A stretch of 43,615 nucleotides of DNA from an uncultured Butyrivibrio sp. (lineage in GTDB: Bacteria; Bacillota; Clostridia; Lachnospirales; Lachnospiraceae): positions 1 to 43,615 of the forward strand of contig CAMVNV010000015.1 of assembly GCA_947168935.1 (NCBI GenBank). Reading direction: 5' to 3'. Position 1 is the stretch's first letter. The number at the start of each line of letters is the position of its first letter. Shown here piece by piece: positions 10,823 through 37,319 of this stretch. The position numbers were made by a program, and so were the translations under genes. The notes under the pieces were generated by a model, which saw nothing but the letters and a program-made list of their open reading frames with translations, ran no database searches and was not told the origin of the DNA.

Positions 10823-10940
10823 ATAATATACCTCCTGCGATCTCTTTAAGTCCATTAGCAGAGCCTGCCAGTGTAATAACTGCAGCAGAAAGCTCCTGCA
10901 TGGATGCGCCTGATGCAATTTCCCAAGCTGCATTATCACC
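10800..10940 (-). pseudogene. Possible 3' remnant of a chemotaxis receptor gene
   Basis: In a frame different from rpiB, the minus strand encodes about 45 residues between two stops. They include IASGASMQELSAAVITLAGS and then LKEIAGGIL. This has the heptad style of the C-terminal signalling tail of methyl-accepting chemotaxis proteins. A stop directly precedes it and it has no start, so it would be a decayed fragment that now overlaps the rpiB ribosome site. The match is by eye and short. Confidence 0.35.
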
Positions 10941-11033: not shown

Positions 11034-11061
11034 TTGTATACTTTAAGATAGAAGATACTAT
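11034..11061 (+). promoter_or_regulatory. Putative promoter of the diguanylate cyclase pair
   Basis: TTGTAT (11034-11039) and TACTAT (11056-11061) with a 16-base spacer, about 60 bases before the start codon. Transcripts starting here would carry the second hairpin of the element at 11054-11103. Confidence 0.4.
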
Positions 11062-11103
11062 GCGCATCTAGTACATGATTAGAAATACAAGGAAGTATTT
11101 CTA
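11054..11103 (+). repeat. Two-hairpin GGA element, copy 1 (diguanylate cyclase leader)
   Basis: Contains the conserved spacer ATCTAGTACATGATT, then arms AGAAATAC (11081-11088) and GTATTTCT (11095-11102) around AAGGAA. The first hairpin (GATAC...GCATC) has one mismatch and lacks GGA. It is 6 bases upstream of the GGAG ribosome site of the downstream gene. The loop sequence ACAAGGA within a stem matches the known style of CsrA/RsmA sites. Confidence 0.65.
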
Positions 11104-11123
11104 TATAATGGAGCATACAGTGT

Positions 11124-12821
11124 ATGTACAAAAAAAGCATTCACCAAAATGTAATTACTCTTCTTGTACTATTTATAGCGGTTACATCTATTATGCTGGC
11201 CTTTGGAAGTGACGTTTTTTCTTCCCAAAGTGCAGTTTCTTTAGGTGGTTTTGATGAGGGCTATTCCATAAGTGCCCGCAACGAAGTCCTTGAATCTGTT
11301 TCCCTGTCTTCTTTTCACATCAAAAATATCAAAAGGGGTGAAATAATAAGACTATATAACGAACTTCCTGAAGAAAAGATCGTTTCACCAACCCTTATGT
11401 TTATAACTTACCTTTCCATAGTTGACGTATATGTAGATGGAAGGCTGGTTTATTCCTATGGTCATGAGTATTACAACGAAGAAAAGATTATTCCCAAAAA
11501 GCAGCATCTTATAACTCTTGATGATCGGGACAAAAACAACAAACTGGAGATAGTTGTTGTAGCCGGCGAAAATGGAGCTTTTGAAAGTCTTGGTCCGATC
11601 TACTTTGGCACTAGAAAGGATCTCATTAAATCATTTTTACAAAAGCATAGGCTGGTTATCTTTATTGGCGGTTTTTTTATCATGTATGCTTGCCTTTTGT
11701 TATCACTTGCACTATACCTGTCCTTGCAGAAAAAAAGAGCCTTGTCACTATTAACAAGCGCCGGCGTTGCCATTTTATTCGGAGCATACATCTACGCTTA
11801 TGAGGATGTATTCTGCTTTATAAGCAACAACGCCTACTTCTTTACTATGCTTGAATATATAACTTTGTATTTCATTCCACTTGCCATTGTTCTGACGATC
11901 TATTCTGTCCAAAATTACAAGGCAGGGCTTTTTCAGCGTATTCTTGAGATAATAAATTTCATTTTACCTGTGATCTTTATAATCCTGCACGTTTTGAACA
12001 AGGTTCACCTGAGCCGATTCCCTATAGCAATTCACATACTATGTGTTGCTGATATCCTGTTTATTTTCCCTCCTCTTGTAAAAAGACTCTATTCAGAGTT
12101 CAAAAAAGAACTGGAATCTACTACCTATACCGGCATAAATGCTTTTTCTTATCTTACCTTTGGCTTTATCATATTCATGTTTATGGGCTTTATCGAGATA
12201 GTCAAATATAATGTGCAAATATATGGAAGTAATCCGGATAACTTTTTAACCAGGGTCAATTATCTGACTTTGGGTGCTTTGTATTTCGCTATATGTCTTT
12301 TCATATATTATCTTTTAAATGGTATAGAGCATGTTAACTCTAAGTATGTTAAGGAGCAGCTCGAGGGTCTTGCATATACTGATGAACTTACAGGGCTTAT
12401 GAACAGGGCTAAGTGCATGCAGTTCATCAAAACGCTCTCAGGGCCTTATGCCGTTGTAAGTATTGACCTTGACAGACTTAAAACTGTAAACGACTCCTAT
12501 GGACACCTTGAAGGGGATAAGATGATCAAGTCATTCGCAGAGCTTCTTGTAAAGGCATTCCAGGGTGCGTCTCTCATCGGTCGTACCGGCGGAGATGAAT
12601 TTATGGTCATTTATGAAAACCCTTCTTCAAATGTATGCGACATGGCGATAAGACAGCTTGAAGATGATATGAATGAGTTCAACCAAAAGGGCGAGATATT
12701 CAATCTTTCAGCTTCAATGGGATATGCCTATAGTTCAGAACGTAGTTCTATGGGCTTTACAGATGTTTTTTATCTTGCAGATTCAAGAATGTATGAGATG
12801 AAGGAGAAACATCATGCTTAA
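11124..12821 (+). CDS. Membrane diguanylate cyclase (7TMR-DISM-like sensor, GGDEF)
   Basis: A 565-residue c-di-GMP synthase. One N-terminal helix (about 10-30) leads to an extracytoplasmic beta domain (about 35-175), then seven or eight membrane helices (about 180-395), and a GGDEF domain (about 405-560). DELTGLMNR opens the domain, and the active motif RTGGDEF is intact (GGDEF at 489-493). No RxxD inhibitory site is seen five residues before it, so product inhibition may be weak or absent. Layout and lengths match 7TMR-DISM receptors, which sense extracellular ligands. GGAG lies 10 bases before the ATG. It overlaps the next, similar gene by 8 bases. A structured GGA-loop hairpin sits just before its ribosome site. 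Confidence 0.9.
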   Translation: MYKKSIHQNVITLLVLFIAVTSIMLAFGSDVFSSQSAVSLGGFDEGYSISARNEVLESVSLSSFHIKNIKRGEIIRLYNELPEEKIVSPTLMFITYLSIVDVYVDGRLVYSYGHEYYNEEKIIPKKQHLITLDDRDKNNKLEIVVVAGENGAFESLGPIYFGTRKDLIKSFLQKHRLVIFIGGFFIMYACLLLSLALYLSLQKKRALSLLTSAGVAILFGAYIYAYEDVFCFISNNAYFFTMLEYITLYFIPLAIVLTIYSVQNYKAGLFQRILEIINFILPVIFIILHVLNKVHLSRFPIAIHILCVADILFIFPPLVKRLYSEFKKELESTTYTGINAFSYLTFGFIIFMFMGFIEIVKYNVQIYGSNPDNFLTRVNYLTLGALYFAICLFIYYLLNGIEHVNSKYVKEQLEGLAYTDELTGLMNRAKCMQFIKTLSGPYAVVSIDLDRLKTVNDSYGHLEGDKMIKSFAELLVKAFQGASLIGRTGGDEFMVIYENPSSNVCDMAIRQLEDDMNEFNQKGEIFNLSASMGYAYSSERSSMGFTDVFYLADSRMYEMKEKHHA

Positions 12822-14649
12822 GCGCATTATATCTCTTTTGATATCCTTCATATTATTCCTGTGTCTTATGGCAGGCGGTCACAAGCTTATCAGGCCAACA
12901 GGTCTTGATCAAATAATTGTGCTTGATAGCGGCTGGACGGTCACTTATAACGACACAGTCTTTGAGAATAATTCGCTCTCTGAACTTAGAGAGCTTATTG
13001 GTAGTGGCACTTATAAGGGCGACCGGATCATATTCAAGAGGCAGCTCCCTGACCTTAAAGGTTTTACCGCTCCATCAATTCTGTTCCAGTCTGAGTTCAG
13101 TGCCTGGGAGATCCGTATCGATGGCGTTTTGGTCGCAGATTATCTGATGGACAAATATAACAAAGGGGAATTTGTAGGCTGCGCAAACAATTTCTATACT
13201 TTTTCTACCTACTATTCATATGCAACTTTTGAAATTGAGTTCCATGTTGCTGAAGACGGCGCATATAACTATTTTTCTGCACCCGCAGCCGGAAGCTATC
13301 AGGACCTTCTTTTGTATTTCATATATAACTACTTGTATATCCTTATGTCTTCATGCTTTTTCATCATATTCGGAGTATTGTTCCTTGCCATCTCCATTGG
13401 CTTTAGGCGTATACTTCCGGAAGTTGATATACAGATCTACTCTGCACTTTTGTATATTGCTCTTGGAATCTGGTTCCTGGCACAGTTCAATCTCCTTGAT
13501 TTCATTGTCGATACAAACGGACACGAAACCGAGATCGAGTATATATCTTTGTATATGGTAATCCCGCTTATGTACTTTGTTATGGGCTCTGCCCATGATT
13601 TCCTCAGAAAAAAGATATATCTTGTATTTGCAATTATCAGTACTATTTTTGCGACAACTCCTATTGTGATCCATTTCCTTGGCGGAACGCACATCAATAA
13701 ATTCCTCTACCTCTACCAGATCAATGCGACTATTCTATTTGTATTTATGCTTATCATGGTAATAAAAGATATCAGACAACAGACTATCAGCACATCTCAG
13801 TTTATCCAGCTTGTAGGTATGAGTATGATATCTCTGGCATTTATTTTCAATGTAATCTTCCTGTATCTGGAAGTTGCAGGTATAAGCGAGCAGATCATGC
13901 TGTCCAAGGAAGCTGTTCCAATGGGAACCTTCTGTATGGCATTTACTTCACTTGTTAACTACTACCTGTATATCTCTGAATCCTACGGCCGTAAAAAGGA
14001 ATATGAGTCTCTTGCCCATCTGGCCTATGCTGACGGACTCACCAATATTCCAAACAGGTCAAAATATGAAAAGTATCTTTCTGATCTTTCCAAAAGCGGT
14101 GAGGACTACTGTATTATCAGTCTGGATCTAAATAATCTTAAGAAAGTAAATGATAATATTAGTCACCTTATGGGTGATAAGTATTTAAGACAGTTCAGCC
14201 ATGCTCTGGAAGAATGCTTTAATGAAAAGGGATTTATTGCAAGAATAGGCGGCGATGAATTCGTTGCCATATTAAAGGGTGAACATATTAATGATGCCGA
14301 TGAACTTATCGGTCAGCTTAATGATGCCATGGACAGACTTAACAAAAAAGATTCCAGCTTCATTCGCAGCGTTGCTACAGGCTATGCCTATAAGCACGAA
14401 ACTGACGAACAAAGCTGGAATGCTGTATATCTCCTCGCAGACAAGAGAATGTATGCAAATAAGGCTGATATAAAAATAGGGGAATTATTATTTTTTGGAC
14501 TTACTTCTTTCAAAGAAGTCATCAACCTGCTGCATGACTTCCCTTTGTCCTGCACTTTTAAGGATGTAGCCCTGAGGTTTAAGCCTGAGGACTTTAGCTA
14601 CACTTTCCTTATCTCCTTTTCCCGTAAGAAATATTACAGGTATATCTGA
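12814..14649 (+). CDS. Second membrane diguanylate cyclase (7TMR-DISM-like, GGDEF)
   Basis: A 611-residue paralogue-like partner of the preceding gene with the same plan: N-terminal helix, extracytoplasmic beta domain (about 30-165), seven or eight membrane helices (about 175-390) and GGDEF (about 400-550). GGDEF is intact at 479-483 (ARIGGDEF), with no RxxD inhibitory site. The start overlaps the previous gene's end, so translation is probably coupled. After the normal domain end (LLADKRMYANKADI) it continues for about 58 residues that lie antisense to the last 162 bases of the receiver gene on the other strand. This tail looks unlike any domain and may come from loss of the original stop. 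Confidence 0.88.
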   Translation: MLKRIISLLISFILFLCLMAGGHKLIRPTGLDQIIVLDSGWTVTYNDTVFENNSLSELRELIGSGTYKGDRIIFKRQLPDLKGFTAPSILFQSEFSAWEIRIDGVLVADYLMDKYNKGEFVGCANNFYTFSTYYSYATFEIEFHVAEDGAYNYFSAPAAGSYQDLLLYFIYNYLYILMSSCFFIIFGVLFLAISIGFRRILPEVDIQIYSALLYIALGIWFLAQFNLLDFIVDTNGHETEIEYISLYMVIPLMYFVMGSAHDFLRKKIYLVFAIISTIFATTPIVIHFLGGTHINKFLYLYQINATILFVFMLIMVIKDIRQQTISTSQFIQLVGMSMISLAFIFNVIFLYLEVAGISEQIMLSKEAVPMGTFCMAFTSLVNYYLYISESYGRKKEYESLAHLAYADGLTNIPNRSKYEKYLSDLSKSGEDYCIISLDLNNLKKVNDNISHLMGDKYLRQFSHALEECFNEKGFIARIGGDEFVAILKGEHINDADELIGQLNDAMDRLNKKDSSFIRSVATGYAYKHETDEQSWNAVYLLADKRMYANKADIKIGELLFFGLTSFKEVINLLHDFPLSCTFKDVALRFKPEDFSYTFLISFSRKKYYRYI

Positions 14650-15258
14650 TGTACCTGTTTCTGTTCTCATCATCTCAAGAACCTGAGGTCCTGTTGTAAC
14701 AGGCATCTCATAGTCAAGTAGTACAAGGTCAGGGACATTTTTGGCAATATAGGTAATTGCCTGCATGCCGGAATTTACAATTGTAACCTTGTATTTTTCT
14801 GAAAGCCAGTCTTTAACAAGATGAAGGAAGGTTGGATCATCATCTACCAGAAGGATATTTTTCCTTGCATTAATAGAATCCTGATTCTCGGCAAGCTCTG
14901 CAAGTTTTGCAACAAGCATCTTGATATCCAGAGGTCTTTCAAAGATATTGTCGATGACAGATTTGCCTATAACTTTGTTCAGCGCTTCAACTTCTTCCTC
15001 ATCTCCTATTACGCTAAGGCTCTTTTCCTTCTCAATACAGGTATCTTTTAAAAATATAAGCGCCTCTGTAACATCCCGGATAAAATCCCCAAGATAGAAC
15101 AGGATGAAATCAGCAGACTCTATGAGTCCCTTGATATCATCGATTACAGGACCGCTTCCGGATACATTAAATCCTGCTTCTTTTAAATTTTTGGTTATGG
15201 CATCTACCATAAATGTAGAACCCTGGCTTATAAGCAAAACGTTCTTGTTCATATTCAT
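14488..15258 (-). CDS. Double-receiver response regulator without output domain
   Basis: A 256-residue cytoplasmic signalling protein. The second half (about 133-250) is a canonical receiver: acidic pair in LLVDDDP, phosphoacceptor Asp in LLDYEMP, Thr in FLTGKG and Lys in YILKS. The first half (about 5-125) has a receiver-like fold pattern but no clear acidic pocket. There is no DNA-binding or enzymatic output domain. It lies 28 bases after the hybrid kinase gene, so it is the likely end point of a kinase-receiver-HPt-receiver phosphorelay. AGGTGG precedes the start; an ATG two codons later is equally possible. Its 3' end overlaps the diguanylate cyclase tail by 162 bases on the opposite strand. 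Confidence 0.85.
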   Translation of the reverse strand: MNMNKNVLLISQGSTFMVDAITKNLKEAGFNVSGSGPVIDDIKGLIESADFILFYLGDFIRDVTEALIFLKDTCIEKEKSLSVIGDEEEVEALNKVIGKSVIDNIFERPLDIKMLVAKLAELAENQDSINARKNILLVDDDPTFLHLVKDWLSEKYKVTIVNSGMQAITYIAKNVPDLVLLDYEMPVTTGPQVLEMMRTETGTSDIPVIFLTGKGDKESVAKVLRLKPQGYILKSAGQREVMQQVDDFFERSKSKK

Positions 15259-15286
15259 ATGTCCACCTCATCGACATATAACATGG

Positions 15287-18200
15287 TTAGTTAGATCCGG
15301 ATAATACTTTCAGTGCTTGTTTTAATCCTACGTTTATTTCATTCCAGTCGGCTTTGTGAATTGCTTCTTTGAGTTTCTTATATATCGTCTCTTGTTCTTT
15401 AGGGAGTTCATATTCATCAATTTGATTGAGCACCATTATCATGGAATCATAATCATACATCTGTGCTATCTCAGTCATTGCATCATAGGCTTCTTTGAGC
15501 TGATCAAAAGATATAGGCTCTTTGGCTTTGCCGCCCTCTTCCTGGCCATCCCTCTTAGGATCGGCTCTTCTGATGCTGTCTACAAGTTCAATGTATTCTT
15601 TTAATAACACTGGTGTCTTTGATTTAATTATATCATCATTTTGGTCATTACCGGCTTTTTCCAGTTCCTCCGCAAGTGTTCCAAGTTTTCCTGCACCTAT
15701 TATTCTGGAGGAGCTCTTTATGGCGTGAACTTTGATGGTAAAGTTATCGTAATCCGAGGTCTCAAAAGCATTTTCAATTATTGAGATACTCTCATCAGCC
15801 CCTTCTTCGTATAATCTAAGGGCATCTTCATAACCTGTTGGGGATCCGCAGTTATACAATCCTTTATTAACGTCTATTCCTGATATGTTGCGTATCCACT
15901 TTGGAACCTGGGAATCAGGATCAAAGCTTCCATATTCTTCTTTTTCTATATTTTCTTTTCCCGAAGTAGATTTTTTTGAAGTCTGCTTTGCCTTAGGATC
16001 CTTTTCCTTACAATCATTATCGTCCGTTACGATAGCAAGTCCTTTTGGTAAAAGAAATTTAAGGATAACAACTTCCAAAAGGGTCGGATCAATAGGCTTT
16101 GAGATATAATCATCAAAGCCTTCTGCCATGTACAGATCTCTTGAACCTGATACTGCATTGGCGGTAAGGGCTATAACCTGGGTCTTTTCTTTATCTATAA
16201 GTTCATGCTTTTTGATGATCCTGAAGGTCTGGATGCCGTCCATTTCAGGCATTCTGTGATCAAGGAAGATCATGTCGTATTTATTTTTATGTAATAGTTC
16301 AAGACACTCTCTTCCGCTTGTTGCTGTATCTATCTGAAGCTGGGTCTTTTTAAGAAGACCTTCTATTACAGTAAGATTCATCTTGGTGTCGTCTACAACA
16401 AGGATCTTGGCATCAGGTGCTATAAAGCTTTCACGATACTTATTCCTGCTTGCGATGGAACGTTTAAGCGCCTGATCAAAGTCACCTATAGGAGTTTCAT
16501 CAACAATTTTTTGCTCAAGATCAAATGTGAAAGTTGATCCTTTTCCATATATGCTTTCAACTTCAAGCTTTGAATTCATCATGTCAAGAAGGTCCTGAGT
16601 TATGCTCATTCCAAGGCCCGAACCTTCTACAGTTCTGTTATGACGCTCATCAATTCTTTCAAAGGCGCTGAAGAGCTTAGGCATTTCCTCTTCTTTGATT
16701 CCTATTCCTGTATCAGCTACTGAAACATTAATGACAATATCATCATCCTTACGCTCTTTAATGTGAATATCTAAAGTCACGCTTCCTTCTTTAGTGTATT
16801 TAACGGCATTGGTAAGGATATTGGTGATGACCTGTTTGATCCTTATCTCATCTCCGTAGAGAATATTGGGAATCTCAGGATCTATCTTAACTTTGAGTTC
16901 AAGACCTTTGTCTTCAGATTTTTTCTTGATCATGTTGACAAGGTCATTGAGCACTGATGATACGGCATACTCAACCGGAACTATCTCAAGCTTACCAGCC
17001 TCGATCTTGGAGAAATCCAAAATATCATTAACGATTCCAAGGAGGTTATTACCTGCACTTCTGATATTTTCTGCGTAGTTTAATATTTCCTCCTGATGGC
17101 TCTCTCTAAGGATCATCTCATCCATTCCAAGTATTGCATTGATAGGAGTTCTGATCTCATGAGACATGTTGGACAGGAAGGATGACTTGGATTCAGAGGA
17201 CTTTTTGGCGATCTCAAGCTCTTTTTCCAGCTCATGTTCTTCGTTAATATGACAGATGTATTTCTCGATGGCATAAACCGTCTTTTTGATTGAATCATTT
17301 ACAACCTTGATCTCATCGTGACTTTTTACATTCAGATTTTCAACCTTGCGGCCAACAATAAGCTTGCTGTCATCATCCGCATCTGCATATTCCCGCATAA
17401 AATCTGACATTCTTCCAAGAGGCGCACCTATAGCAACCTTGGTATAGAAATTGGCTATTCCCGCAATTGGAACTCCCACACACAGCATCAGAAGAAGCAT
17501 CTTGATATCATAGCTAAGAGTTGTCGCATCAAGAGTAAATACAAAATTGTTGATATCTTCCTGAATTTCTGCTTCCGAAACCGTTCCACTAAGCTTTCCT
17601 AAAAGTTCACCTCTTTCTATGTTACTGATCATAATACTCTTGATATCCGGGAAAAGAGCTATCATAAAAATTGCTACAAATATACCAAGAATAATCTCTA
17701 AAAGGATTATGATGGCAGTTATCTTTATGCTGACTTTGGTCTTTTTAAAGCCCGCCTGAAGCTCTATGTCAGAATAGTAAAAGCTAGTGTAGGTCACTGA
17801 AACCGGGAATGGATATTTTAGATTATCAGGAGCTTTGGTGAAATAAAAATGCAAAAGGAATGCAGTCAGAAACGCAACAACTATCCCTCTGAAAAAATAC
17901 TTCATGAATAAGGGATAAGCATCAAGCGTATACTGCTTACCATCTACTACCACTATGGTAAAAAACTGCATAAAGGTAGTTATCAAAAGTGTGGCAGCGG
18001 CAGTTATTGCAGTTTTAATCCAGGTAGAAAACATCCTGTACTGGCCTGCCAGTGAAAAGCAAAGAAGGACAGCAAGGTTTATTGACATCTTATATACGTT
18101 ATCACTGTCAGCAATAAGAACATAGATAAACATGATCAAAAAGCTTATCAGTGACACAAAATATCCATAAAGACCGCCAAGGATAAGGTATGGCATAACA

Positions 18201-18358
18201 GCAAAGGCGGCTATAACTACTCCGCCCACTTCGAGATTAAAAAGATCACAGTGAAGAGAAGCATACACACAGAGCCACATAAGGCCCAAAAGCAATGTGG
18301 CGCTTATAAGTGTGTTGATAACCACTGTAGATTTTTTGTAGCTACTCAAATCTGCCAT
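15287..18358 (-). CDS. Hybrid histidine kinase with receiver and HPt domains
   Basis: About 1023 residues. The N-terminal part has about seven membrane helices (to about residue 315), including a possible extracytoplasmic loop at about 240-285. A HAMP-like linker and coiled coil (about 312-395) precede HisKA, with phospho-acceptor His400 in SNMSHEIRTP. The ATPase domain has ADTGIGI and GSGLGMSI. A receiver follows with IFLDHRMPEMDG (Asp about 700), then an HPt domain with KVHAIKSSS (His about 878). The protein can thus carry a full phosphorelay, probably passing phosphate to the double-receiver protein downstream. The start is uncertain: ATG at 18358 has GAGGTG at a long 13-base distance, while ATG at 18379 has no ribosome site. 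The tandem GGA-hairpin repeat lies immediately upstream. Confidence 0.9.
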   Translation of the reverse strand: MADLSSYKKSTVVINTLISATLLLGLMWLCVYASLHCDLFNLEVGGVVIAAFAVMPYLILGGLYGYFVSLISFLIMFIYVLIADSDNVYKMSINLAVLLCFSLAGQYRMFSTWIKTAITAAATLLITTFMQFFTIVVVDGKQYTLDAYPLFMKYFFRGIVVAFLTAFLLHFYFTKAPDNLKYPFPVSVTYTSFYYSDIELQAGFKKTKVSIKITAIIILLEIILGIFVAIFMIALFPDIKSIMISNIERGELLGKLSGTVSEAEIQEDINNFVFTLDATTLSYDIKMLLLMLCVGVPIAGIANFYTKVAIGAPLGRMSDFMREYADADDDSKLIVGRKVENLNVKSHDEIKVVNDSIKKTVYAIEKYICHINEEHELEKELEIAKKSSESKSSFLSNMSHEIRTPINAILGMDEMILRESHQEEILNYAENIRSAGNNLLGIVNDILDFSKIEAGKLEIVPVEYAVSSVLNDLVNMIKKKSEDKGLELKVKIDPEIPNILYGDEIRIKQVITNILTNAVKYTKEGSVTLDIHIKERKDDDIVINVSVADTGIGIKEEEMPKLFSAFERIDERHNRTVEGSGLGMSITQDLLDMMNSKLEVESIYGKGSTFTFDLEQKIVDETPIGDFDQALKRSIASRNKYRESFIAPDAKILVVDDTKMNLTVIEGLLKKTQLQIDTATSGRECLELLHKNKYDMIFLDHRMPEMDGIQTFRIIKKHELIDKEKTQVIALTANAVSGSRDLYMAEGFDDYISKPIDPTLLEVVILKFLLPKGLAIVTDDNDCKEKDPKAKQTSKKSTSGKENIEKEEYGSFDPDSQVPKWIRNISGIDVNKGLYNCGSPTGYEDALRLYEEGADESISIIENAFETSDYDNFTIKVHAIKSSSRIIGAGKLGTLAEELEKAGNDQNDDIIKSKTPVLLKEYIELVDSIRRADPKRDGQEEGGKAKEPISFDQLKEAYDAMTEIAQMYDYDSMIMVLNQIDEYELPKEQETIYKKLKEAIHKADWNEINVGLKQALKVLSGSN

Positions 18359-18390
18359 AAAAAAACCGATACACCTCATCAAACAATGTT

Positions 18391-18448
18391 GAAGATATAG
18401 GACATATCTAGTACATGTTTAGAAGTTCATGGATGAACTTCTATGTAC
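18391..18448 (+). repeat. Two-hairpin GGA element, copy 2 (first of a tandem pair)
   Basis: 58-base unit. Hairpin one is GATAT-AGGAC-ATATC (18394-18408). A spacer TAGTACATGTTT follows. Hairpin two has arms AGAAGTTCAT (18421-18430) and ATGAACTTCT (18433-18442) around GG. Outer GTACAT and ATGTAC can add a further helix. GGA is exposed in both loops only on the plus strand, which is antisense to the flanking genes. Confidence 0.75.
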
Positions 18449-18506
18449 GAAGATATAGGACATATCTAGTACATGTTTAGAAGTTCATGGATGAACTTCT
18501 ATGTAC
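18449..18506 (+). repeat. Two-hairpin GGA element, copy 3 (second of the tandem pair)
   Basis: Base-for-base repeat of the unit at 18391-18448, directly abutting it, with hairpins at 18452-18466 and 18479-18500. The identity points to a recent duplication or active maintenance. A run of seven Ts follows at 18540-18546, but I see no clear hairpin in front of it. Confidence 0.75.
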
Positions 18507-18590
18507 GAAAGACAGCATAGTCCAATGAGTATATCGGCATTTTTTTCATAATGATGTAGTTTTAATAAGCGCCTTTTGGTCCTTTATAGA

Positions 18591-19724
18591 TCAAAGTGAA
18601 TGAGTTTCAATATAATCTGACATTAAAAGCCAGTCAATATCCACTACTCTTGATAACCACTCTGCGCACAAAGCGGTATATTCTTCATCAGATATCTGGT
18701 ATTCAGGTTTCTTGGCGGCATTGTCAAGATCTGCTGTATCAGGGCCTTCTACGTGAACATCGCCTTCCCAGTATCCAAGGAACTCATCTTCTACAAATCC
18801 TGTATTACCCCAGTCGGTGCCATCAGGATCTACAAGCGATGGATCAAAATGGTATTTCCATGTACCAGAGTATGCAGCTCCGCTACTTCCATCTTCATAA
18901 AAGCTGCCATCATCTCCTAGCCAGAGGGAACATCTGCATCCACCTTCAAAGATATGAACAGGCTTACCATCTATAAGGGTATATACTCTTTCAAATATGC
19001 TTGTGGAAGTCCACTCATCGCCATTTGCCACGCCAAAGATAAGCTCAAATACGCCGTCGCTGTTAAGATCTACATAGGTATATCTAACATTGTTGATGTC
19101 AAAGCCATAGTCCATCTCAAAGTTTGAACCAAGCTTTTGTGTTTCGTTTTCTTTAAAGCCCGGATTAAGAATTCCAAATTCACTAAGCTCAAAATCTCTT
19201 TTTTCATCTACAAGGGAATACTCAGGAGAGACTGATATATCATCTAGTATTCCGCGACCTTCATTCATCCATTCCAGATTTTCTTCATAGATGTCGTAGG
19301 TCTCCTGGAAGGCGTCTTTATATAGCTCGTCGTATTCTTCGATTATGGTCTGGTCTGTAAGTCTGTAGATATAGCCATCGCCTTCTTTTACAAGATAGGT
19401 GCGGTCATAGAGGCCTTCCTGGGGGCCAATTCCAGATGATGCCTGGTCTGATCCACTTTCGGAATCGTCTTCTGTAGAACTATCTGCTGCGCTATCTGAC
19501 TTTTCCTTGGAAGCATCTGCGTTTTCATCTTCGGTTTGGTCTTTGGACTCACCTTCGGATGTAGTTTCTTCTTTGGTCTCATCTTTGGTTTCTTCTGTAG
19601 CCGCATCGTCTTTACTAGCAACTGATGCTTCTTCGCTGCTTCCACTTCCTGGCAAGGAGAGATCTCCGCAGGCTGTCATTGCAACTGCTGATAATAGGAA
19701 GATAGCTATTGCTCTTTTTTTCAT
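18591..19724 (-). CDS. Lipoprotein with acidic linker and EF-hand-like motif
   Basis: 377 residues. Signal peptide with a lipobox ending MTACG, followed by a long Ser/Glu/Asp/Lys linker (about 25-100) that would lift the rest off the membrane. The folded part contains VDLNSDGVFELIFGVA, a calcium-binding-like D-x-N-x-D-G-x-x-E motif of the kind seen in repeat-containing surface proteins. No enzymatic motif is recognised. AAAGGA precedes the ATG. Its linker style and size class resemble the lipoprotein at 8317-10095, but the folded domains differ. Function unknown. Confidence 0.7.
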   Translation of the reverse strand: MKKRAIAIFLLSAVAMTACGDLSLPGSGSSEEASVASKDDAATEETKDETKEETTSEGESKDQTEDENADASKEKSDSAADSSTEDDSESGSDQASSGIGPQEGLYDRTYLVKEGDGYIYRLTDQTIIEEYDELYKDAFQETYDIYEENLEWMNEGRGILDDISVSPEYSLVDEKRDFELSEFGILNPGFKENETQKLGSNFEMDYGFDINNVRYTYVDLNSDGVFELIFGVANGDEWTSTSIFERVYTLIDGKPVHIFEGGCRCSLWLGDDGSFYEDGSSGAAYSGTWKYHFDPSLVDPDGTDWGNTGFVEDEFLGYWEGDVHVEGPDTADLDNAAKKPEYQISDEEYTALCAEWLSRVVDIDWLLMSDYIETHSL

Positions 19725-19838
19725 AAAATATGTCCTTTCAATATGTAATGCAGGTGAATGATAAAATCATGGCACCCACTAATGAACTAAGTTGTCTTGA
19801 TGATAATAAGAATATACTAAAATTATACATTCGTAAAT

Positions 19839-19874
19839 AATACCGATGCAAGGAAAGTTCCCTACATCGGTATT
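19839..19874 (-). terminator. Hairpin after the radical SAM gene
   Basis: Arms AATACCGATG and CATCGGTATT with a second complementary pair GGAA/TTCC inside the loop, about 40 bases beyond the radical SAM stop. Only a short T-rich stretch follows, so it may be a terminator or an mRNA-stabilising structure. Confidence 0.5.
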
Positions 19875-19913
19875 AAAGAGTACTATTCATATCCAGGAGT
19901 AGATCTTATAAGA

Positions 19914-21416
19914 TCATGCGCCTTCATTCTCTTTTGGTCTGTTATCACTGTGCTCATCTTTAGGCGTAACACATAATTCAAGCTTCTTTATGCTTTCCAA
20001 TTTTTCCGGTGCATAATTCTCATAAGCTTTTTTGAAGTGTTTCTGGCTAGCCCAGATTTCATCTGCAACCGGCCCCCACTCTTTTGAATAGGAATCACAC
20101 TTAGCACAGAGATGCTCTACACTTTCCTCTGATTCTTCATTGGTTCCATGAGCTCCGGATCTGGCCACCATATCTCTTAGCAGCTCAGGATTTTCAAGCA
20201 TAGGACAGGGTCTTAAATGATTCTTGTTAAATGGCTGTCCCTTATGATATTCCATAAACAGAGGACTCTGGAGCATTTCAAGTATTGAATGCGTATGAAT
20301 GTTAGTGTTGGAGAAGTGAATAAATACGCAGGGTTCAGCATCTCCGCTTGAATTGATATGGAAGTAATTTCTGCCTCCTGCAATACATCCGCCAACAGCT
20401 TCACCGTCATTCTGGAAGTCCATTGGGAAAAAGCCTATATCGCACTTATCACTTCTAAGGTATCTTATTCTATCCACCATCTTCTTTCTCTGTTCTACTG
20501 TAGGCATCAACTCAGGAACAGCGTTATTGCCAACCGGCATATAGTGGAAGAAGAATCCGAATCTTGCACCTTTTTCAGCGATGAATTCAATAAACTTAGG
20601 ATCCGTTACTGCCTCAATGTTATTTCTTGTATAGCAGATGGAAGTTCCATATACTATTCCGTACTTCTTGAATAAGTCCATGGCCTTCATGACAGCATCA
20701 TAGTGTCCTATTCCACGTCTTGCATCATTTGTATCTGGAGTTCCTTCGATAGAAAGCTGGAACGTGATATTTCCAAGCCTTACAACTTCTTTACAGAAAT
20801 CCTCATCAATAAGGGTGGAGTTGTCATAAATAGAAAATTCTACATCATTGTGCTTTTCAGCAAGCCTAAGTACATCCTTTTTTCTTACAAGAGGTTCTCC
20901 TCCTGTCATCATGTAAAGGTATACTCCAAGCTCTTTTCCCTGAGTAACGATCTTATCCATGTCTTCAAAAGACAGGTTGTGTTTGGGACCATATGTTCCT
21001 GACCAACAACCCTGGCAATGCATATTGCAGGCACTTGTGGGATCAAAAAGGATCAGCCACGGGATATTGCAACCATACTTCTTCCTGTTGGCCCTGATCA
21101 TCTTAGTACCTCTGAAAAAAGCTTCATAGCCAAGGTTAAGCATAAGCATCTTCGCCACATGTGGATCAGTGTCATCAACCACTTTGTTAAGGAACTTGAC
21201 CCATCTGTTGTCAGGATCTTTAAACGCAGCTCTTACTTTATCGAGACTATCTTTTTTAGCTCCGTTTTTGCCCCAGAATATCTCTGCCTCATCTACAAGT
21301 TTAAGATATGTCTGCGTTCTGTTTTCTGACTTGTCGAGGTTAGAAAGAAATCTGTCAATTAGTATACTAAATGCCTGTCTTTGAGCTTTGTGAGAAATAT
21401 TTTCTACCAGCTGCAT
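19914..21416 (-). CDS. Radical SAM protein with C-terminal Cys-rich extension
   Basis: 500 residues. The [4Fe-4S]/SAM site is the CxxxCxxC motif at Cys130, Cys134 and Cys137 (SACNMHCQGCWSG), followed by the GGEP motif (MMTGGEPLV). The C-terminal third adds many Cys: GGCIAGG, AEPCVFIHF, RPCPML and HLCAKC. These could bind a second cluster in the manner of SPASM/twitch domains. The N-terminal 110 residues are helical and not recognised. The substrate cannot be told from sequence. GGGAGG lies about 10 bases before the ATG. It is transcribed divergently from a TetR gene, with a GTTACA-type palindrome between them, so it is the likely target of that repressor. Confidence 0.85.
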   Translation of the reverse strand: MQLVENISHKAQRQAFSILIDRFLSNLDKSENRTQTYLKLVDEAEIFWGKNGAKKDSLDKVRAAFKDPDNRWVKFLNKVVDDTDPHVAKMLMLNLGYEAFFRGTKMIRANRKKYGCNIPWLILFDPTSACNMHCQGCWSGTYGPKHNLSFEDMDKIVTQGKELGVYLYMMTGGEPLVRKKDVLRLAEKHNDVEFSIYDNSTLIDEDFCKEVVRLGNITFQLSIEGTPDTNDARRGIGHYDAVMKAMDLFKKYGIVYGTSICYTRNNIEAVTDPKFIEFIAEKGARFGFFFHYMPVGNNAVPELMPTVEQRKKMVDRIRYLRSDKCDIGFFPMDFQNDGEAVGGCIAGGRNYFHINSSGDAEPCVFIHFSNTNIHTHSILEMLQSPLFMEYHKGQPFNKNHLRPCPMLENPELLRDMVARSGAHGTNEESEESVEHLCAKCDSYSKEWGPVADEIWASQKHFKKAYENYAPEKLESIKKLELCVTPKDEHSDNRPKENEGA

Positions 21417-21440
21417 ACTTGTCTTACCTCCCCATGAAGT

Positions 21441-21471
21441 GTTACAATCATCCTGTTGTTACAAGTGTAAC
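21441..21471. promoter_or_regulatory. Candidate TetR operator
   Basis: Perfect 14-base palindrome GTTACAAGTGTAAC (21458-21471), with a further GTTACAA half-site at 21441. TGTAAC half-sites recur near 21538 and 21558. All lie between the radical SAM gene and the divergent TetR gene. The palindrome sits about 42 bases upstream of the radical SAM start, suited to blocking its promoter. Confidence 0.55.
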
Positions 21472-21562
21472 GCCGCCGTATTAAGAATACAACAATTCTG
21501 CCCTCGGACATGACAATAGCTGCCACATTTGAAGCGATGTAACATAATTGGATTTTTTGTAA

Positions 21563-21655
21563 CGTCGGAGATTAAGTTTGAAAATAAAATTTTCAAACTT
21601 CACAAAGTGGTGTCGCGAGCTCCACCACTTCAACCATTAGTCACTCGTTTCACTC
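21563..21655 (-). repeat. Double-hairpin intergenic element with GTGACTAATG box, copy 1
   Basis: In plus orientation: AT-rich hairpin with arms AAGTTTGAAAAT and ATTTTCAAACTT, then a hairpin with arms AAGTGGTG and CACCACTT around TCGCGAGCTC, then CATTAGTCACTCG and a CACTCG repeat. Read on the minus strand this is GTGACTAATG, hairpin, AT-rich hairpin, the same order as in the two copies at 37207-37386. It lies in the leader of the TetR gene. Confidence 0.6.
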
Positions 21656-21672
21656 GTGACATGAGGTTAAAA

Positions 21673-22257
21673 ATGAAAACTACAAAAGAAACTATGACAG
21701 AAATGCAGAAAAAAGAAGTTCTTCGAATGAATAATAAGGAATCCAATCAGCTTACCAGAGAATGTCTGCAGCTTTCGCTGATGCATCTAATGGGTGAACA
21801 TCCATATGAAAAGATCACAGTCAGTGAAATCGTACGCCGTGCCGGAGTCTCAAGGACGGCCTTCTATCGTAACTACAATGATAAAGAAGATATTCTGCAT
21901 GAACTTGGTAACAGGATGATAAAGAGCATCGCAGAAATAAGTGAACGGCCTGAACTTCATGAAAATCCGCATCAGTGGTTTGAACTTGTATTTCGAACTG
22001 TTCGCAGAGATAAAGACACTATTGCCCTGCTTGATCAGGCGGGTATTCTTCAAAGTGAACTCTTCTCCGGCAAATCAATTTCAAAGCTTCTGTATACTAC
22101 AGCTGATACTGATACCAAGTACATAAGACTTGCAGCTGAAGCCGCTTTCTTCCAGATACTCATAAGCTGGTTCAGGGATGGCATGCAGGAAGATGAAAAG
22201 CACATGGCTGATATCTGCGTTGAAATCTTTGAAAACATGATGACGAAGCTTCCGTAA
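21673..22257 (+). CDS. TetR/AcrR family transcriptional regulator
   Basis: 194 residues. The N-terminal helix-turn-helix is typical: ITVSEIVRRAGVSRTAFYRNYNDKE (split here as ITVSEIVRRAG and VSRTAFYRNY), at about residues 43-75. The C-terminal ligand domain is helical and diverges from well-known members. Start at 21673: GAGGT lies 7 bases upstream, and the open frame before it runs through the hairpin element, so is non-coding. It is divergent from the radical SAM gene, with which it shares candidate operators, so it probably represses that gene or itself. Confidence 0.85.
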   Translation: MKTTKETMTEMQKKEVLRMNNKESNQLTRECLQLSLMHLMGEHPYEKITVSEIVRRAGVSRTAFYRNYNDKEDILHELGNRMIKSIAEISERPELHENPHQWFELVFRTVRRDKDTIALLDQAGILQSELFSGKSISKLLYTTADTDTKYIRLAAEAAFFQILISWFRDGMQEDEKHMADICVEIFENMMTKLP

Positions 22258-22263
22258 TGATTT

Positions 22264-22401
22264 CTAGGAGTTTATTACAAGTAAGTCCGGCTCTACGTGA
22301 CATGTTAGAAATAGTATATCTACTCCAGCTGCTTTAGCATCTTCAAAAGCTTTTGCAAACTCAGGATGGGTGTTTACATTGGGCCTGACTTCCGATACGC
22401 C
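22264..22401 (-). pseudogene. sfsA: 3' remnant of an sfsA-like gene
   Basis: The encoded VRPNVNTHPEFAKAF and AAGVDILFLTCHVEPD match the C-terminal end of SfsA (sugar fermentation stimulation / DNA-binding) proteins, where a RP..dIDPeFa..L..A..aGVeila.. pattern closes the domain. Only about 45 residues remain; the N-terminal OB-fold and nuclease-like core are missing. The open frame extends upstream to 22488, but that part does not resemble SfsA. The intergenic stretch of 339 bases around it holds no other gene. Confidence 0.6.
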
Positions 22402-22596
22402 GTCCATCCTAGTATTCATCATACCAGTAATCTTCCGCCGCGTCGTAGGATGTGCTTCTATTTGCATATTTCGGAATAAATTGTTCAAGAAAAAAGCCGA
22501 TAATATAAACGGTTATTCTTTTTTATAGGCTTACAAACATTCATACTAGTGTGTTGACTCGTTCATCTTTAATCAAATTACAAAGGGGTAAATAAT

Positions 22597-22791
22597 ATGA
22601 ATCCAGAAAAACAGGCCTGCACATGTAAGAATATCAAATATAAAGATATCATTAATTTGGTATTATCGGGTGTTACTGAGGTCAAAGATGTTCAGGAGAA
22701 GCTCCGCTATGGAACCGGGTGCGGCAAGTGTGTGGAATTCATAGAATTTCTGATCAAGGATGTAGCGGCTAATCCAGGAAATTATAAATAA
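22597..22791 (+). CDS. BFD-like [2Fe-2S]-binding protein
   Basis: 64 residues, whole protein equal to one BFD-like domain. The four cluster Cys occur as C-x-C near the N-terminus (ACTCKN) and C-x-x-C near residue 47 (TGCGKCVEF), the spacing typical of bacterioferritin-associated ferredoxin and NifU-linked domains. It probably passes electrons or helps iron release or Fe-S assembly; no partner gene adjoins. AAAGGGG lies 8 bases before the ATG. A TTGACT box at about 22553 suggests its own promoter, and a strong terminator follows. Confidence 0.85.
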   Translation: MNPEKQACTCKNIKYKDIINLVLSGVTEVKDVQEKLRYGTGCGKCVEFIEFLIKDVAANPGNYK

Positions 22792-22802
22792 TGTCTTTTT
22801 TC

Positions 22803-22850
22803 AAAAAAATAAAGGAATCAGCACGTTTAACGCGTCTGATTCCTTTTTCT
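22803..22850. terminator. Bidirectional terminator
   Basis: Arms AAAGGAATCAG (22811-22821) and CTGATTCCTTT (22836-22846) with a run of As before and Ts after, between the BFD gene (plus) and the NSS transporter (minus), both of which end here. Confidence 0.85.
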
Positions 22851-22856
22851 TATTTA

Positions 22857-24212
22857 TTAAGCAAGACCTGTTAAGAACAGAATAAATATCAGAACAGGAA
22901 GTACAAATCTGAAGTAATACTTCAGGAAAGATGGGAGCTTAACGCCCTCTCCTGTGTTAACTTCTTCCTGGTACTTATCGAATCCCCATCCCCATTTTGT
23001 TACGCAGAATAAGAGGAATATGATGGCACCTATTGGAAGGAAGAGGTTACTTACCATAAAGTCTTCTGAATCCAGGATGTCCTTGTTTCCAATAATTGTA
23101 ACGCCCTTGAGGATATTGTAGCCAAGTGCGCAAGGTGTGCAGGTCACAAGAAGGATTATGTAGTTGATAAGTGATGACTTCTTTCTGGACCAGCCAAAGT
23201 TATCAATGCCTACAGCAATGATATTTTCAAATACAGCGATTACTGTAGAAAAGCTTGCAAAGGTCATGAATACGAAGAACAGTGTGCCCCAGAGTCTTCC
23301 AAAGTTCATGTGAATGAAGATCTCAGGAAGTGTGATAAAAATAAGTGAAGGGCCTGCTGTTGTCTCGATTCCGTATGAGAAGCAAGCAGGGAATATGATA
23401 AGTCCTGAAAGTATAGCTATAAGTGTATCAAGGAGGCAGATTCTAAGTGATTCTCCCACAAGACCTTTATTCTTGTGCATATAGCTACCAAATATCTCCA
23501 TGGATGCTGCTCCAAGTGATAAGGTGAAAAAGCTCTGGTTCATTGCTGCTGTTATAACTTTTCCAAGTCCTACTGTTTTAACTGACTTAACAGATGGAAG
23601 CAGATAGAATTTGATACCTTCTGCTGCGCCTGAAAGTGTAGCACTGTTGATGGCAAGGACGATGATAAGTACTATAAGCGCGATCATCATGAACTTTGTG
23701 ATATTCTCAATACCCTTCTGAAGTCCCATGGCACATACAACGATGCCGAATGTAACTGTAAGGATCATAAAGAACATAGCCTGCTTTGGAGATGCAAGCA
23801 TGTCATCAAACACCTGTGCAACAGTATTTTCTGTATTTACAGTTTCGAATCTGCCTGTTGCAAACTTGATCATGTAGTTGATCATCCAGCCAGATACTGT
23901 TGTGTAGTACATCATGAGCATAAGATTGGCTATAAAGCAGACCCATCCATGGATATGCCACTTAGTGCCCTTTGGCTCAAGGACCTTATAAGCCTGAACT
24001 ACGCTCTTTCTGCTGGCTCTTCCCACAGCCAGCTCCATTGTAAGAATCGGCGCCCCCATAATAAGCAGAAACAGGAGGTAGAAAAGAACAAACAGTCCAC
24101 CGCCGTTCTGACCTGTAATATATGGAAATTTCCATACATTACCTATACCGATTGCGCATCCTGCGCTGACAAGGATAAATCCAAGTCTTGATTTGAAATT
24201 CTCTCTTTCCAT
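22857..24212 (-). CDS. Sodium-dependent transporter of the NSS (LeuT/SNF) family
   Basis: About 451 residues and 11-12 membrane helices. The first helix carries the family signature GIGNVWKFPYITGQNGGG, which forms the sodium and substrate sites in LeuT. NSS members import amino acids or related amines with Na+; the substrate here cannot be deduced. The ATG at 24212 is chosen because GGGAAAAG precedes it; a TTG at 24224 overlaps that site. It stands alone, with an extended -10 promoter at 24337-24345 and a strongly folded 95-base leader between promoter and gene, so its expression is probably controlled through the leader RNA. Confidence 0.9.
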   Translation of the reverse strand: MERENFKSRLGFILVSAGCAIGIGNVWKFPYITGQNGGGLFVLFYLLFLLIMGAPILTMELAVGRASRKSVVQAYKVLEPKGTKWHIHGWVCFIANLMLMMYYTTVSGWMINYMIKFATGRFETVNTENTVAQVFDDMLASPKQAMFFMILTVTFGIVVCAMGLQKGIENITKFMMIALIVLIIVLAINSATLSGAAEGIKFYLLPSVKSVKTVGLGKVITAAMNQSFFTLSLGAASMEIFGSYMHKNKGLVGESLRICLLDTLIAILSGLIIFPACFSYGIETTAGPSLIFITLPEIFIHMNFGRLWGTLFFVFMTFASFSTVIAVFENIIAVGIDNFGWSRKKSSLINYIILLVTCTPCALGYNILKGVTIIGNKDILDSEDFMVSNLFLPIGAIIFLLFCVTKWGWGFDKYQEEVNTGEGVKLPSFLKYYFRFVLPVLIFILFLTGLA

Positions 24213-24236
24213 AACTTTTCCCAATTTATTAGTATT

Positions 24237-24333
24237 TTTTATGTCCGTGTGCTAAAAAGATGCAAAATACAGGCATCTGTTTGACGCTTTGCCGCGTTTA
24301 TGCTTTTACGCACTAAATCGCACAGACATAAAA
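24237..24333 (-). promoter_or_regulatory. Structured leader RNA of the NSS transporter gene (riboswitch or attenuator candidate)
   Basis: On the minus strand TTTTATGTC+TGTGC (24320-24333) pairs with GCACA and GACATAAAA (24237-24252), a 14-bp closing helix with a 2-base bulge. Inside are GCGT/ACGC arms and a hairpin GATGC/GCATC followed by TTTTT (about 24255-24278), which looks like an intrinsic terminator. The promoter's expected start point falls at the first arm. I do not recognise a known riboswitch class. Confidence 0.5.
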
Positions 24334-24336
24334 TAT

Positions 24337-24345
24337 ATCATAGCA
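24337..24345 (-). promoter_or_regulatory. Extended -10 promoter of the NSS gene
   Basis: Minus strand TGCTATGAT, with a weak TTCCTA box 17 bases upstream. Transcription would start near 24330, exactly at the folded leader. Confidence 0.5.
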
Positions 24346-24381
24346 TAATTAATGTATTTTAGGAACAGTTAAATTAATTTT

Positions 24382-24417
24382 CATCAAGAAAATCCCACCT
24401 GCAATCGCAGGTGGGAT
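24382..24417 (-). terminator. Strong hairpin between NSS and pgi promoters
   Basis: Perfect 11-bp stem ATCCCACCTGC / GCAGGTGGGAT with loop of four, followed on the minus strand by TTTTCTT. No minus-strand gene ends here, so it may insulate the NSS promoter from antisense transcription. Confidence 0.55.
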
Positions 24418-24423
24418 GTACCG

Positions 24424-24474
24424 GATCCAGGATGGATCTTAGCACATGTTCAGAAATACACGGATGTATTTCTA
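24424..24474 (+). repeat. Two-hairpin GGA element, copy 4 (upstream of pgi)
   Basis: Hairpin one is GATCC-AGGAT-GGATC (24424-24438). Spacer TTAGCACATGTTC. Hairpin two has arms AGAAATACA (24452-24460) and TGTATTTCT (24465-24473) around CGGA. Compared with the 18.4-kb copies both stems change in a compensating way while loops AGGAY and NGGA stay. It lies before the likely pgi promoter. Confidence 0.7.
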
Positions 24475-24510
24475 TACAAAAAAACGTTTTCCTAAAAAAA
24501 TGTTACTTTT

Positions 24511-24599: not shown

Positions 24600-26183
24600 A
24601 TGATCAACTGGAAAAACGCAGATGAACTCAAGTCATTTAACGATCTTTATGCTCTTAAAGACCAGGTAAATCTTGTAGACGTTATGGATGGAGCAAATGG
24701 TGCAGAAAGAGTAAAGAAATACTCTGCTGCTATGTCAGGAGGACTTTCTTACAACTACGCAGCTAAGCAGGTAGATGATACCGTGCTTTCTGCTCTTGCA
24801 AAATTTGCTGAAGAAGCACAGCTCGTTGAGAAATTTGAGGCTCTTTACAATGGCGAAGTAATAAATACAGGTGAAAAGAGACTCGTTCTCCACCAGCTCA
24901 CTCGTGGTCAGCTTGGAAACGACGTAGTTGCAGACGGCGTTAACAAGAGAGACTTCTATGTTGAGCAGCAGAATAAGATCGCTGATTTTGCAAACAAGGT
25001 TCACAACGGCGAGATCACAAATGAAAAGGGTGAGAAGTTCACTACAGCTGTACAGATCGGTATCGGCGGAAGTGACCTTGGTCCTCGTGCTATGTATCTT
25101 GCACTTGAGAACTGGGCTAAGTCAAACGGCAAGTTCTTCATGGATGCAAAGTTCATTAGTAACGTAGATCCTGACGATGCTACTGCTGTTCTTAACAGCG
25201 TTGACGTATCACGTTCAATCTTTATCCTTGTATCTAAGTCAGGTACAACACTTGAGACTCTTACAAACGAAGCTTTCGTTAAAGATGCTCTTAAGAAGGC
25301 TGGTCTTGATGCTTCCAAGCACATGATCGCCGTTACAAGTGAGACATCTCCTCTTGCTAAATCCAGTGACTATCTTGCAGCCTTCTTTATGGATGACTAT
25401 ATCGGCGGCCGTTATTCTTCAACATCAGCTGTAGGCGGAGCTGTTCTGTCTCTTGCTTTCGGACCTGATGTATTCAAGGCTTTCCTTGACGGCGCTGCAG
25501 CTGAAGATAAGAATGCTACTAACAAAGACCTCACTAAGAACCCTGCTATGCTTGATGCCCTTATCGGCGTATATGAGCGTAACGTTCTTGGATATGAGTC
25601 TACAGCAGTTCTTCCTTACTCTCAGGCTCTTTCACGTTTCCCTGCTCACCTTCAGCAGCTTGACATGGAGTCTAATGGTAAGAGCGTTAACCGTTTTGGT
25701 GATAAGGTTGACTACGTTACAGGACCTGTTATCTTCGGTGAGCCTGGAACTAACGGACAGCACTCCTTCTACCAGCTCCTTCACCAGGGAACTAACATCA
25801 TTCCTCTTCAGTTCATCGGTTTCAAGAACAACCAGACAGGCAATGATGTAGATATCCAGGGAAGCACAAGCCAGCAGAAGCTCTGCGCTAACGTAGCAGC
25901 TCAGATCATGGCATTTGCTTGTGGTAAAAAAGATGAGAACGCTAACAAGAACTTCGAGGGCGGACGTCCTTCAAGTATCATCGTTGGTGATAAGCTCACT
26001 CCTGAAGTACTCGGCGCTTTACTTGCTCACTTTGAGAACAAGGTTATGTTCCAGGGATTTGCCTGGAACCTTAACAGCTTTGACCAAGAAGGTGTTCAGC
26101 TTGGTAAGACTCTTGCTAAGAAGGTTCTTGCAGGCGATACAGCAGATGCTCTTAAGGCATACAGCGATCTTCTTGGAATCTGA
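24600..26183 (+). CDS. pgi: Glucose-6-phosphate isomerase
   Basis: 527 residues, full length for the large bacterial form. Converts glucose 6-phosphate to fructose 6-phosphate in the cytoplasm (glycolysis and gluconeogenesis). Sugar-isomerase motifs are clear: VQIGIGGSDLGPRAM, LVSKSGTTLET (phosphate-binding Ser/Thr loop), GGRYSSTSAVGG and the C-terminal GEPGTNGQHSFYQLLHQG with the catalytic Glu and His. GAGG lies before the ATG. Codon use is strongly biased, as expected of a highly expressed gene. It is monocistronic, with a promoter upstream and a strong terminator downstream. Confidence 0.97.
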   Translation: MINWKNADELKSFNDLYALKDQVNLVDVMDGANGAERVKKYSAAMSGGLSYNYAAKQVDDTVLSALAKFAEEAQLVEKFEALYNGEVINTGEKRLVLHQLTRGQLGNDVVADGVNKRDFYVEQQNKIADFANKVHNGEITNEKGEKFTTAVQIGIGGSDLGPRAMYLALENWAKSNGKFFMDAKFISNVDPDDATAVLNSVDVSRSIFILVSKSGTTLETLTNEAFVKDALKKAGLDASKHMIAVTSETSPLAKSSDYLAAFFMDDYIGGRYSSTSAVGGAVLSLAFGPDVFKAFLDGAAAEDKNATNKDLTKNPAMLDALIGVYERNVLGYESTAVLPYSQALSRFPAHLQQLDMESNGKSVNRFGDKVDYVTGPVIFGEPGTNGQHSFYQLLHQGTNIIPLQFIGFKNNQTGNDVDIQGSTSQQKLCANVAAQIMAFACGKKDENANKNFEGGRPSSIIVGDKLTPEVLGALLAHFENKVMFQGFAWNLNSFDQEGVQLGKTLAKKVLAGDTADALKAYSDLLGI

Positions 26184-37157: not shown

Positions 37158-37206
37158 AAAGTGCATTCTCTCTATAAATCGACTGAAGATAAAATAATTC
37201 CCATAA

Positions 37207-37277
37207 CCGGAAGTTAAAAATATTCATATTTTTAACTTCTAGCGATGTTCTATTTATAGAACATCGCATTAGTCACC
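37207..37277 (-). repeat. Double-hairpin element with GTGACTAATG box, copy 2
   Basis: Minus strand order: GGTGACTAATG, hairpin with arms GCGATGTTCTA and TAGAACATCGC, TAG, hairpin with arms AAGTTAAAAATAT and ATATTTTTAACTT, CCGG. It lies in the mrdA-rodA gap, about 50 bases before rodA. Confidence 0.75.
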
Positions 37278-37319
37278 TCTGACCTGTCCTTTAGGTCTAG
37301 TGTTAAATCATCTCAATGT

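Follow-up and report, generated by a model that had tools for sequence, protein, structure and literature searches.

Four hairpin elements in a Butyrivibrio contig probably belong to a dispersed, REP-like palindromic DNA repeat

The 43,615 nt stretch analysed here (positions 1 to 43,615 of contig CAMVNV010000015.1, assembly GCA_947168935.1, from an uncultured Butyrivibrio sp.; hereafter the window) holds four copies of an element composed of a short and a longer hairpin, with loops that read GGA on one strand and UCC on the other. The question is whether these hairpins act as RNA, possibly as binding sites of the regulator CsrA, or as DNA. The original prediction, made from the letters of the window, had described them as a conserved RNA or DNA hairpin with compensating stem changes and had proposed a link to CsrA. 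All four copies are present where it had placed them, and the first hairpin of the copy at 11 kb is indeed degenerate. In our view they probably belong to a palindromic DNA repeat of about 100 copies, which resembles the repetitive extragenic palindromes (REPs) and bacterial interspersed mosaic elements (BIMEs), is probably mobile and occurs in Butyrivibrio and some of its relatives.

A covariance model of the four copies (c1 to c4, Table 1) recovered them in the window with E values of 7.5e-17 to 2.9e-14, a search that is circular for these copies, though not for the remaining genome. On the same strand, the match that came next had an E value of 3.4, and the best match on the opposite strand (E 1.3e-4) is an echo of the palindrome. 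The proposal to search for further copies proved fruitful, as covariance-model searches yielded 89 matches at E ≤ 0.001 to the four-copy model in the own genome, 66 matches at E ≤ 0.01 in Butyrivibrio sp. MC2013 (the only match in a pattern scan of named genomes) and others in the family. For the own genome, 106 units at 75 places were kept by hand from 140 rows, with palindrome echoes on the opposite strand and weak rows dropped; 13 of the kept rows have E values above 0.01 (up to 3.6). The places are dispersed and mostly intergenic, and tandem arrays of two to four units occur at 24 of the 75. The counts of orientation, -10 boxes and tags or terminators cover 67 arrays, after removal of eight contigs whose matches were all weak or partial; requiring a readable core, the test for partial next units used 55 of these and another array count 62.

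The four-copy model at E ≤ 0.001 matched none of 60 relatives, 36 of them from the same genus (89 candidates were scored per genome). A two-species model gave matches in 5 of 397 genomes of the family, which we take to be the Lachnospiraceae from the placement in Butyrivibrio; this number includes the own genome, and with 13 candidates scored per genome the absences are weak. Its follow-up yielded 28 matches in genome G417, three in G177 and one each in G196 and G102. Genomes G458 and G459 of genus g66 carry matches too, and the repeat is present in further genera of the family. In line with the view that the element is not a described family, Rfam returned nothing at gathering score in the window; seven loci gave six sub-threshold matches (E 0.76 to 3.7). 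Viral contigs contained no exact match to two patterns of the repeat. Judged by title or start of abstract, the open-licence matches listed for repeats of Butyrivibrio or Lachnospiraceae, for repeats at stop codons or promoters and for CsrA in this group included no description of it.

Read on the strand that is usually coding, a unit of about 58 nt consists of arm A, a hairpin with an ATCC loop, a bulge of 4 nt, arm A' and a short hairpin that again has an ATCC loop. Arm A, typically GTACAT in the own genome and GACAT in MC2013, is complementary to A'. The resulting third, outer helix (GTACAT/ATGTAC) was brought out by aligning many copies and covaries too. Covariation was measured on an alignment, fitted to the model, of 74 own-genome matches (73 distinct): both partners vary in 12 of 15 pairs, and 95.9% of the cells are paired. 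None of 500 shuffles scored as high, which bears out the compensating stems first noticed in the window. Behind some of the 55 arrays a partial next unit repeats the arm of its own locus: seven match it in 13 or more of 14 bases and 13 in 11 or more, compared to 0.9% and 9.2%, respectively, for arms taken from other loci. The outer helix, the partial next units, the mostly non-coding position of GGA and the genome-wide copy number go beyond the original prediction. Three units (L035 4055-4115, L068 4080-4140 and L064 4044-4104) have a short hairpin without the UCC loop (GTTACGGAACGTAAC and similar) and with the stem kept.

An RNA hairpin formed on one strand is expected to gather G-U pairs on that strand. 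Across 82 units, the 1476 cells comprised 1451 Watson-Crick, 5 G.T, 7 A.C and 13 other combinations, G.T corresponding to G-U on the UCC strand and A.C to G-U on the GGA strand. As degenerate copies and additional units of a tandem are not part of this set, it favours well-formed units. The count omits the closing pair of the short loop, where 12 of the 82 units have G.T and one has A.C. For the inner 8 bp of the long hairpin, 114 units (912 cells) gave 903 Watson-Crick, 1 G.T, 5 A.C and 3 other combinations. The pairing also reaches the promoter in genus g66. There, 27 of 32 loci were resolved (L151 was anchored on a neighbouring TATAAT), and of the 108 cells at nucleotides 2-5 after the -10 box, 100 are paired with arm A'; one position shows all four pair types. 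These bases precede the transcription start predicted from that box. Since neither strand has a clear G-U excess and the pairing includes bases upstream of the predicted start, the symmetry appears to be kept in the DNA, or both strands matter. The covarying unit points to a DNA hairpin, and this half of the alternative between RNA and DNA gains from the missing G-U excess. Both results argue against an mRNA hairpin with an RNA function on the UCC strand, be it a 5' or intergenic stem protecting the RNA or a structure bound by a protein at its ATCC loops. We regard such a hairpin as rather unlikely, and the arrangement of the units along the genes provides the evidence on its side.

Based on gene calls from a purpose-written simple open reading frame (ORF) caller, the UCC strand is coding for both neighbours in 46 of the 67 own arrays and non-coding for both in 10; four of the remaining arrays lie between divergent genes, three between convergent genes and four have no neighbour within the sequence fetched around them. 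The UCC strand is therefore coding in 46 of 56 arrays with co-directional neighbours. This prevailing orientation, the location in presumed leaders and intercistronic gaps and the conserved loops would all suit an mRNA hairpin. Where the upstream gene is co-directional (n = 49), the match starts between -10 and +3 nt of the end of the stop codon in 28 cases, compared to 6.9 expected from a uniform position in the gap. The end of the stop codon lies between -11 and +10 nt of the match in 12 of 29 listed loci of MC2013, where two other loci (L105 and L127) are second units of arrays already counted. Stop codons flush with the match (-1 to +2) were TAA in 17 of 20 cases, counted by eye, compared to 58% in other long ORFs (164/285, P = 0.009). 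No run of five T was found within 8 nt behind any of the 67 arrays, nor on the other strand (likewise 0/67), and the arrays are therefore not ordinary terminators. The array at 18.4 kb has T runs further out than 8 nt.

Units of genus g66 are typically placed at promoters. In G417, a unit lies flush behind an exact TATAAT in 12 of 25 loci and behind one with at most one mismatch in 17 (background 0.12% and 1.8%); four of the 25 loci are, by eye, second units of arrays. For G458 and G459, 16 of the 18 loci (out of 20) with a readable first core are flush behind TATAAT with at most one mismatch, as counted by eye, and two pairs of loci look like duplicate contigs. The corresponding numbers are 1/67 (exact) and 6/67 (at most one mismatch) in the own genome (background 0.17% and 3.4%) and 0/26 and 3/26 in MC2013. 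Placement against the -10 box in g66 would suit a repressor site, as would the tandem units, if a DNA-binding protein read the ATCC/GGAT motif in an array of double-stranded operators. Such an array would be expected to keep its sequence, whereas the arms vary while staying complementary, and own-genome sites rarely follow TATAAT, which makes operators highly unlikely. The start codon often comes soon after the element in G417, which favours an mRNA hairpin. The genes behind its elements are mixed in function (phosphofructokinase, rubrerythrin, ribosomal protein L6, there behind the stop codon, and others; named from protein starts, not from a search), which does not, and neither does the turnover of sites described below.

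The CsrA consensus resembles the ACA-N-GGA-UGU loops of the GGA strand. Like CsrA sites and CsrB-type sponges, the arrays present GGA in hairpin loops, several per array. The suggested check for csrA and fliW found both genes in the own genome; across 12 genomes, six with and six without repeat matches, csrA was present in all and does not set the two groups apart. A two-unit array (L067 4090-4208) lies flush at the stop codon between a gene with a flagellin N-terminal domain and fliW-csrA. Within the long hairpin, the inner 8 bp tilt slightly towards G-U on the GGA strand (the 5 A.C against 1 G.T), with G-U rare on both strands. The tandem at 18.4 kb has four GGA loops and folds on that (plus) strand with a z score of -6.2, and the minus strand folds better (z -9.0). 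A sponge RNA on the plus strand, suggested here by an outer stem and a T run, was dropped in view of this difference in folding, and since many such arrays exist. Unlike CsrA sites, the repeat has GGA mostly on the non-coding strand (coding in 10/56 co-directional arrays), appears to keep its symmetry in the DNA and shows no link to the presence of csrA. Gene orientation, G-U counts and the missing link to csrA speak against a CsrA-binding RNA for most copies, so that this part of the original prediction is not supported; it is most improbable that CsrA binds GGA hairpins of the transcribed strand, be it as leader sites or sponge RNA. Within the window, the copy for which a CsrA site is still conceivable is c1, 20 nt upstream of a GGDEF gene whose coding strand carries GGA at this copy.

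Comparison with relatives bears on how the copies came to their sites. Among 12 own sites whose orthologous gene was found in 40 fetched stretches of the sister species MC2013, one is shared and 11 are without the repeat in MC2013, absence meaning no core-pattern match within 260 nt of the tested gene end; without two weak sites (C31 and C8), one of 10 is shared. At the shared site, on contig C12, both genomes carry the element in the gap that separates a PilZ/YcgR gene from one resembling a response regulator (judged by its start). The element's TAG ends the PilZ/YcgR gene, compared to 17 of 17 genus relatives with a tight junction and a protein one codon longer. At C42:13471, the own genome has TGA at the edge of the element; the element is missing from MC2013, where that codon is TAA. 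The phosphofructokinase (pfk) promoter was compared in seven genomes of g66: G417, G459, G460, G457 and G461 have its -35 and -10 boxes in common, and G417 has two units right behind the -10 box where the other four have none. In G458 this position is taken by an array that differs in sequence, and G102 is not alignable there. Judged from these alignments, the empty sites in relatives indicate insertion. The original prediction would have been weakened by copies confined to mobile insertions and free of structural constraint; the absence from 60 relatives and the 11 of 12 differing sites agree with the first point, and the stems are constrained.

Among known systems, REPs are the closest in habit. 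According to the accessible part of a survey (PMC3733652), REP families occur in Proteobacteria, Cyanobacteria and several other phyla, a table ties one superfamily to transposase genes, and REPs lie near the 3' ends of genes, often supply a TAG stop with their termini and often show G-T pairing. The words Firmicutes and Clostridi- are absent from its main text. As described there for REPs, BIMEs and REP doublets forming hairpins (REPINs), the Butyrivibrio repeat is a short palindrome with a copy number in the range of tens to thousands, mainly intergenic, clustered and near the 3' end of the upstream gene, with alternative complementary stem residues and termini that supply a TAG stop. Unlike the REPs of that part of the survey, it has no GTAG or CGTC tag, G-T is rare and G417 has no match to a Y1 transposase; flush placement behind a -10 box is not mentioned there for REPs (PMC3733652). 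Near the foot of the long hairpin, GTAG was found in 0 and CGTC in 1 of the 109 units with a readable core (of 125). The repeat thus behaves like a REP, yet the missing tag and the missing Y1 match in G417 place it outside the GTAG and CGTC superfamilies. A further likeness exists to the TAACTGA repeats of Beggiatoaceae, which in the part of the source available (PMC4679880) occur genome-wide between genes, in some cases overlap the upstream stop and are read toward the next start; these are seven-base direct repeats, unlike the covarying hairpin units.

Integron attC sites were rejected as a candidate, as the core sites RYYYAAC/GTTRRRY were absent from the unit ends in all 109 units. Non-autonomous elements derived from IS200/IS605 are hairpins read on one strand that insert beside a short fixed target in fixed orientation. 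The repeat shares these hairpins and the fixed orientation at a short target, and differs in that no unit lies at the ends of the own Y1 genes and that G417 and G102 are without a Y1 match. A search for Y1_Tnp gave matches in 10 of 12 genomes, repeat-bearing or not. It showed no link to the repeat and lends no support to mobilisation by a REP-associated tyrosine transposase (RAYT), as for REPs; in G417 such an enzyme does not appear to be needed. MC2013 has four matches, G177 two and G196 one, those of G177 and G196 being longer (241-281 aa). A tyrosine recombinase gene between two units on contig C3 was not accepted as the mobiliser, its only other matches in the fetched DNA being three with 24-26% identity (L056 and the overlapping L267/L269). 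At L049 4025-5402, a unit lies 160 nt upstream of a tyrosine recombinase gene whose homologues elsewhere in the fetched DNA are all weak.

Several of these observations weigh against a mobile DNA repeat. Neither the Y1 search nor the comparison of tyrosine recombinases found a mobilising enzyme. G417 is 99% complete, has 28 repeat matches and no Y1 match, and G102 (92% complete, one repeat match) has no Y1 match either. The three Y1 matches of the own genome are IS200/IS605-like (one truncated); two have no repeat match nearby, and the third is about 1.1 kb from a unit, with no unit at the gene ends. No clear target duplication was seen at the empty sites, where the flanks are too diverged (70-75% identity). 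Fixed orientation and flush placement could also mark an RNA function. Flush arrays have 29 listed upstream genes; 18 of these were scanned, and motility families turned up in five, possibly a sign of a regulon.

Taken together, we still favour a mobile palindromic DNA repeat. Its unit would be recognised as folded single-stranded DNA, the symmetry of the stems being maintained in the DNA, and would be copied or moved by a trans-acting enzyme. Units would be retained mainly where no reading frame or promoter is broken. Effects on the mRNA, such as a stop codon supplied by the element or a hairpin in a leader or intergenic region, would be secondary, and an RNA role may exist on top of mobility. 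A bolder proposal, conceivable and on balance doubtful, is that a single hairpin family follows an insertion rule tied to expression signals, flush with the -10 box in one genus and with the stop codon in another, with one orientation prevailing, and is moved by a single-strand machinery other than Y1/RAYT. The target would then perhaps be DNA that RNA polymerase has opened, or a TAA-type sequence found in both TATAAT and the TAA stop.

The window copies themselves (Table 1) are not of the flush kind, as c1 and c4 occupy gaps between divergent genes and c2/c3 follow a stop codon at a distance of about 80 nt. Copy c1 is located between the minus-strand gene 10349-10939 and the plus-strand GGDEF gene 11124-12821, and c4 between the minus-strand gene 22857-24224 and the plus-strand phosphoglucose isomerase gene 24600-26183. 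Copies c2 and c3 form a perfect 58-nt tandem between the minus-strand genes 18591-19724 and 15287-18382, the latter encoding a hybrid histidine kinase, with the UCC strand as the coding strand. This tandem is enclosed by an outer stem (CCGATA..CTCAT / ATGAG..TATCGG, window 18367-18546) with T runs on both strands, which directly precedes the start of the hybrid histidine kinase gene.

Table 1 Units of the repeat in the 43,615 nt window
Unit	Position	UCC strand	Structure
c1	11051..11110	minus	hairpin 2 at 11080-11103; hairpin 1 degenerate
c2	18391..18448	minus	hairpin 1 at 18394-18408, hairpin 2 at 18420-18443; first half of tandem
c3	18449..18506	minus	hairpin 1 at 18452-18466, hairpin 2 at 18478-18501; sequence identical to c2
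c4	24421..24481	minus	hairpin 1 at 24424-24438, hairpin 2 at 24452-24473

Other repeats were noticed as well. A different palindrome (GAAGTTAAAAATAT...) occurs twice in the window, at 37192-37251 and 37305-37364, with 87% likeness between the copies; the closer copy follows the stop codon of the minus-strand gene 37378-40257 after about 13 nt. The palindrome has an arm (TAGAAGTT...AACTTC) similar to that of the unit, and no further copy was found in the fetched loci of the own genome. Foldback elements of about 270-340 bp with inverted ends of about 60 nt (L061 4026-4299 and L054 3967-4308) hold one unit (C27) or two inverted units (C149). Tandem GGATCTGG-type repeats at 804-918 and 1654-1780 of the window lie within the minus-strand ORFs 32-1342 and 1362-3776 and probably encode protein linkers.

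Strong covariation of stems alone is no proof of a structured RNA, and strand-specific G-U counts and gene orientation should be checked along with it. In Butyrivibrio and some of its relatives, a repeat with REP-like habits is found without the tag and, in one genome of 99% completeness, without a Y1 match. Related genomes with and without a copy at one and the same promoter make the mobilising gene findable by comparison. Depending on where it is placed, the repeat can give a gene an untranslated leader, widen the junction between genes of an operon or provide the stop codon, and in this way shapes the starts and ends of genes.

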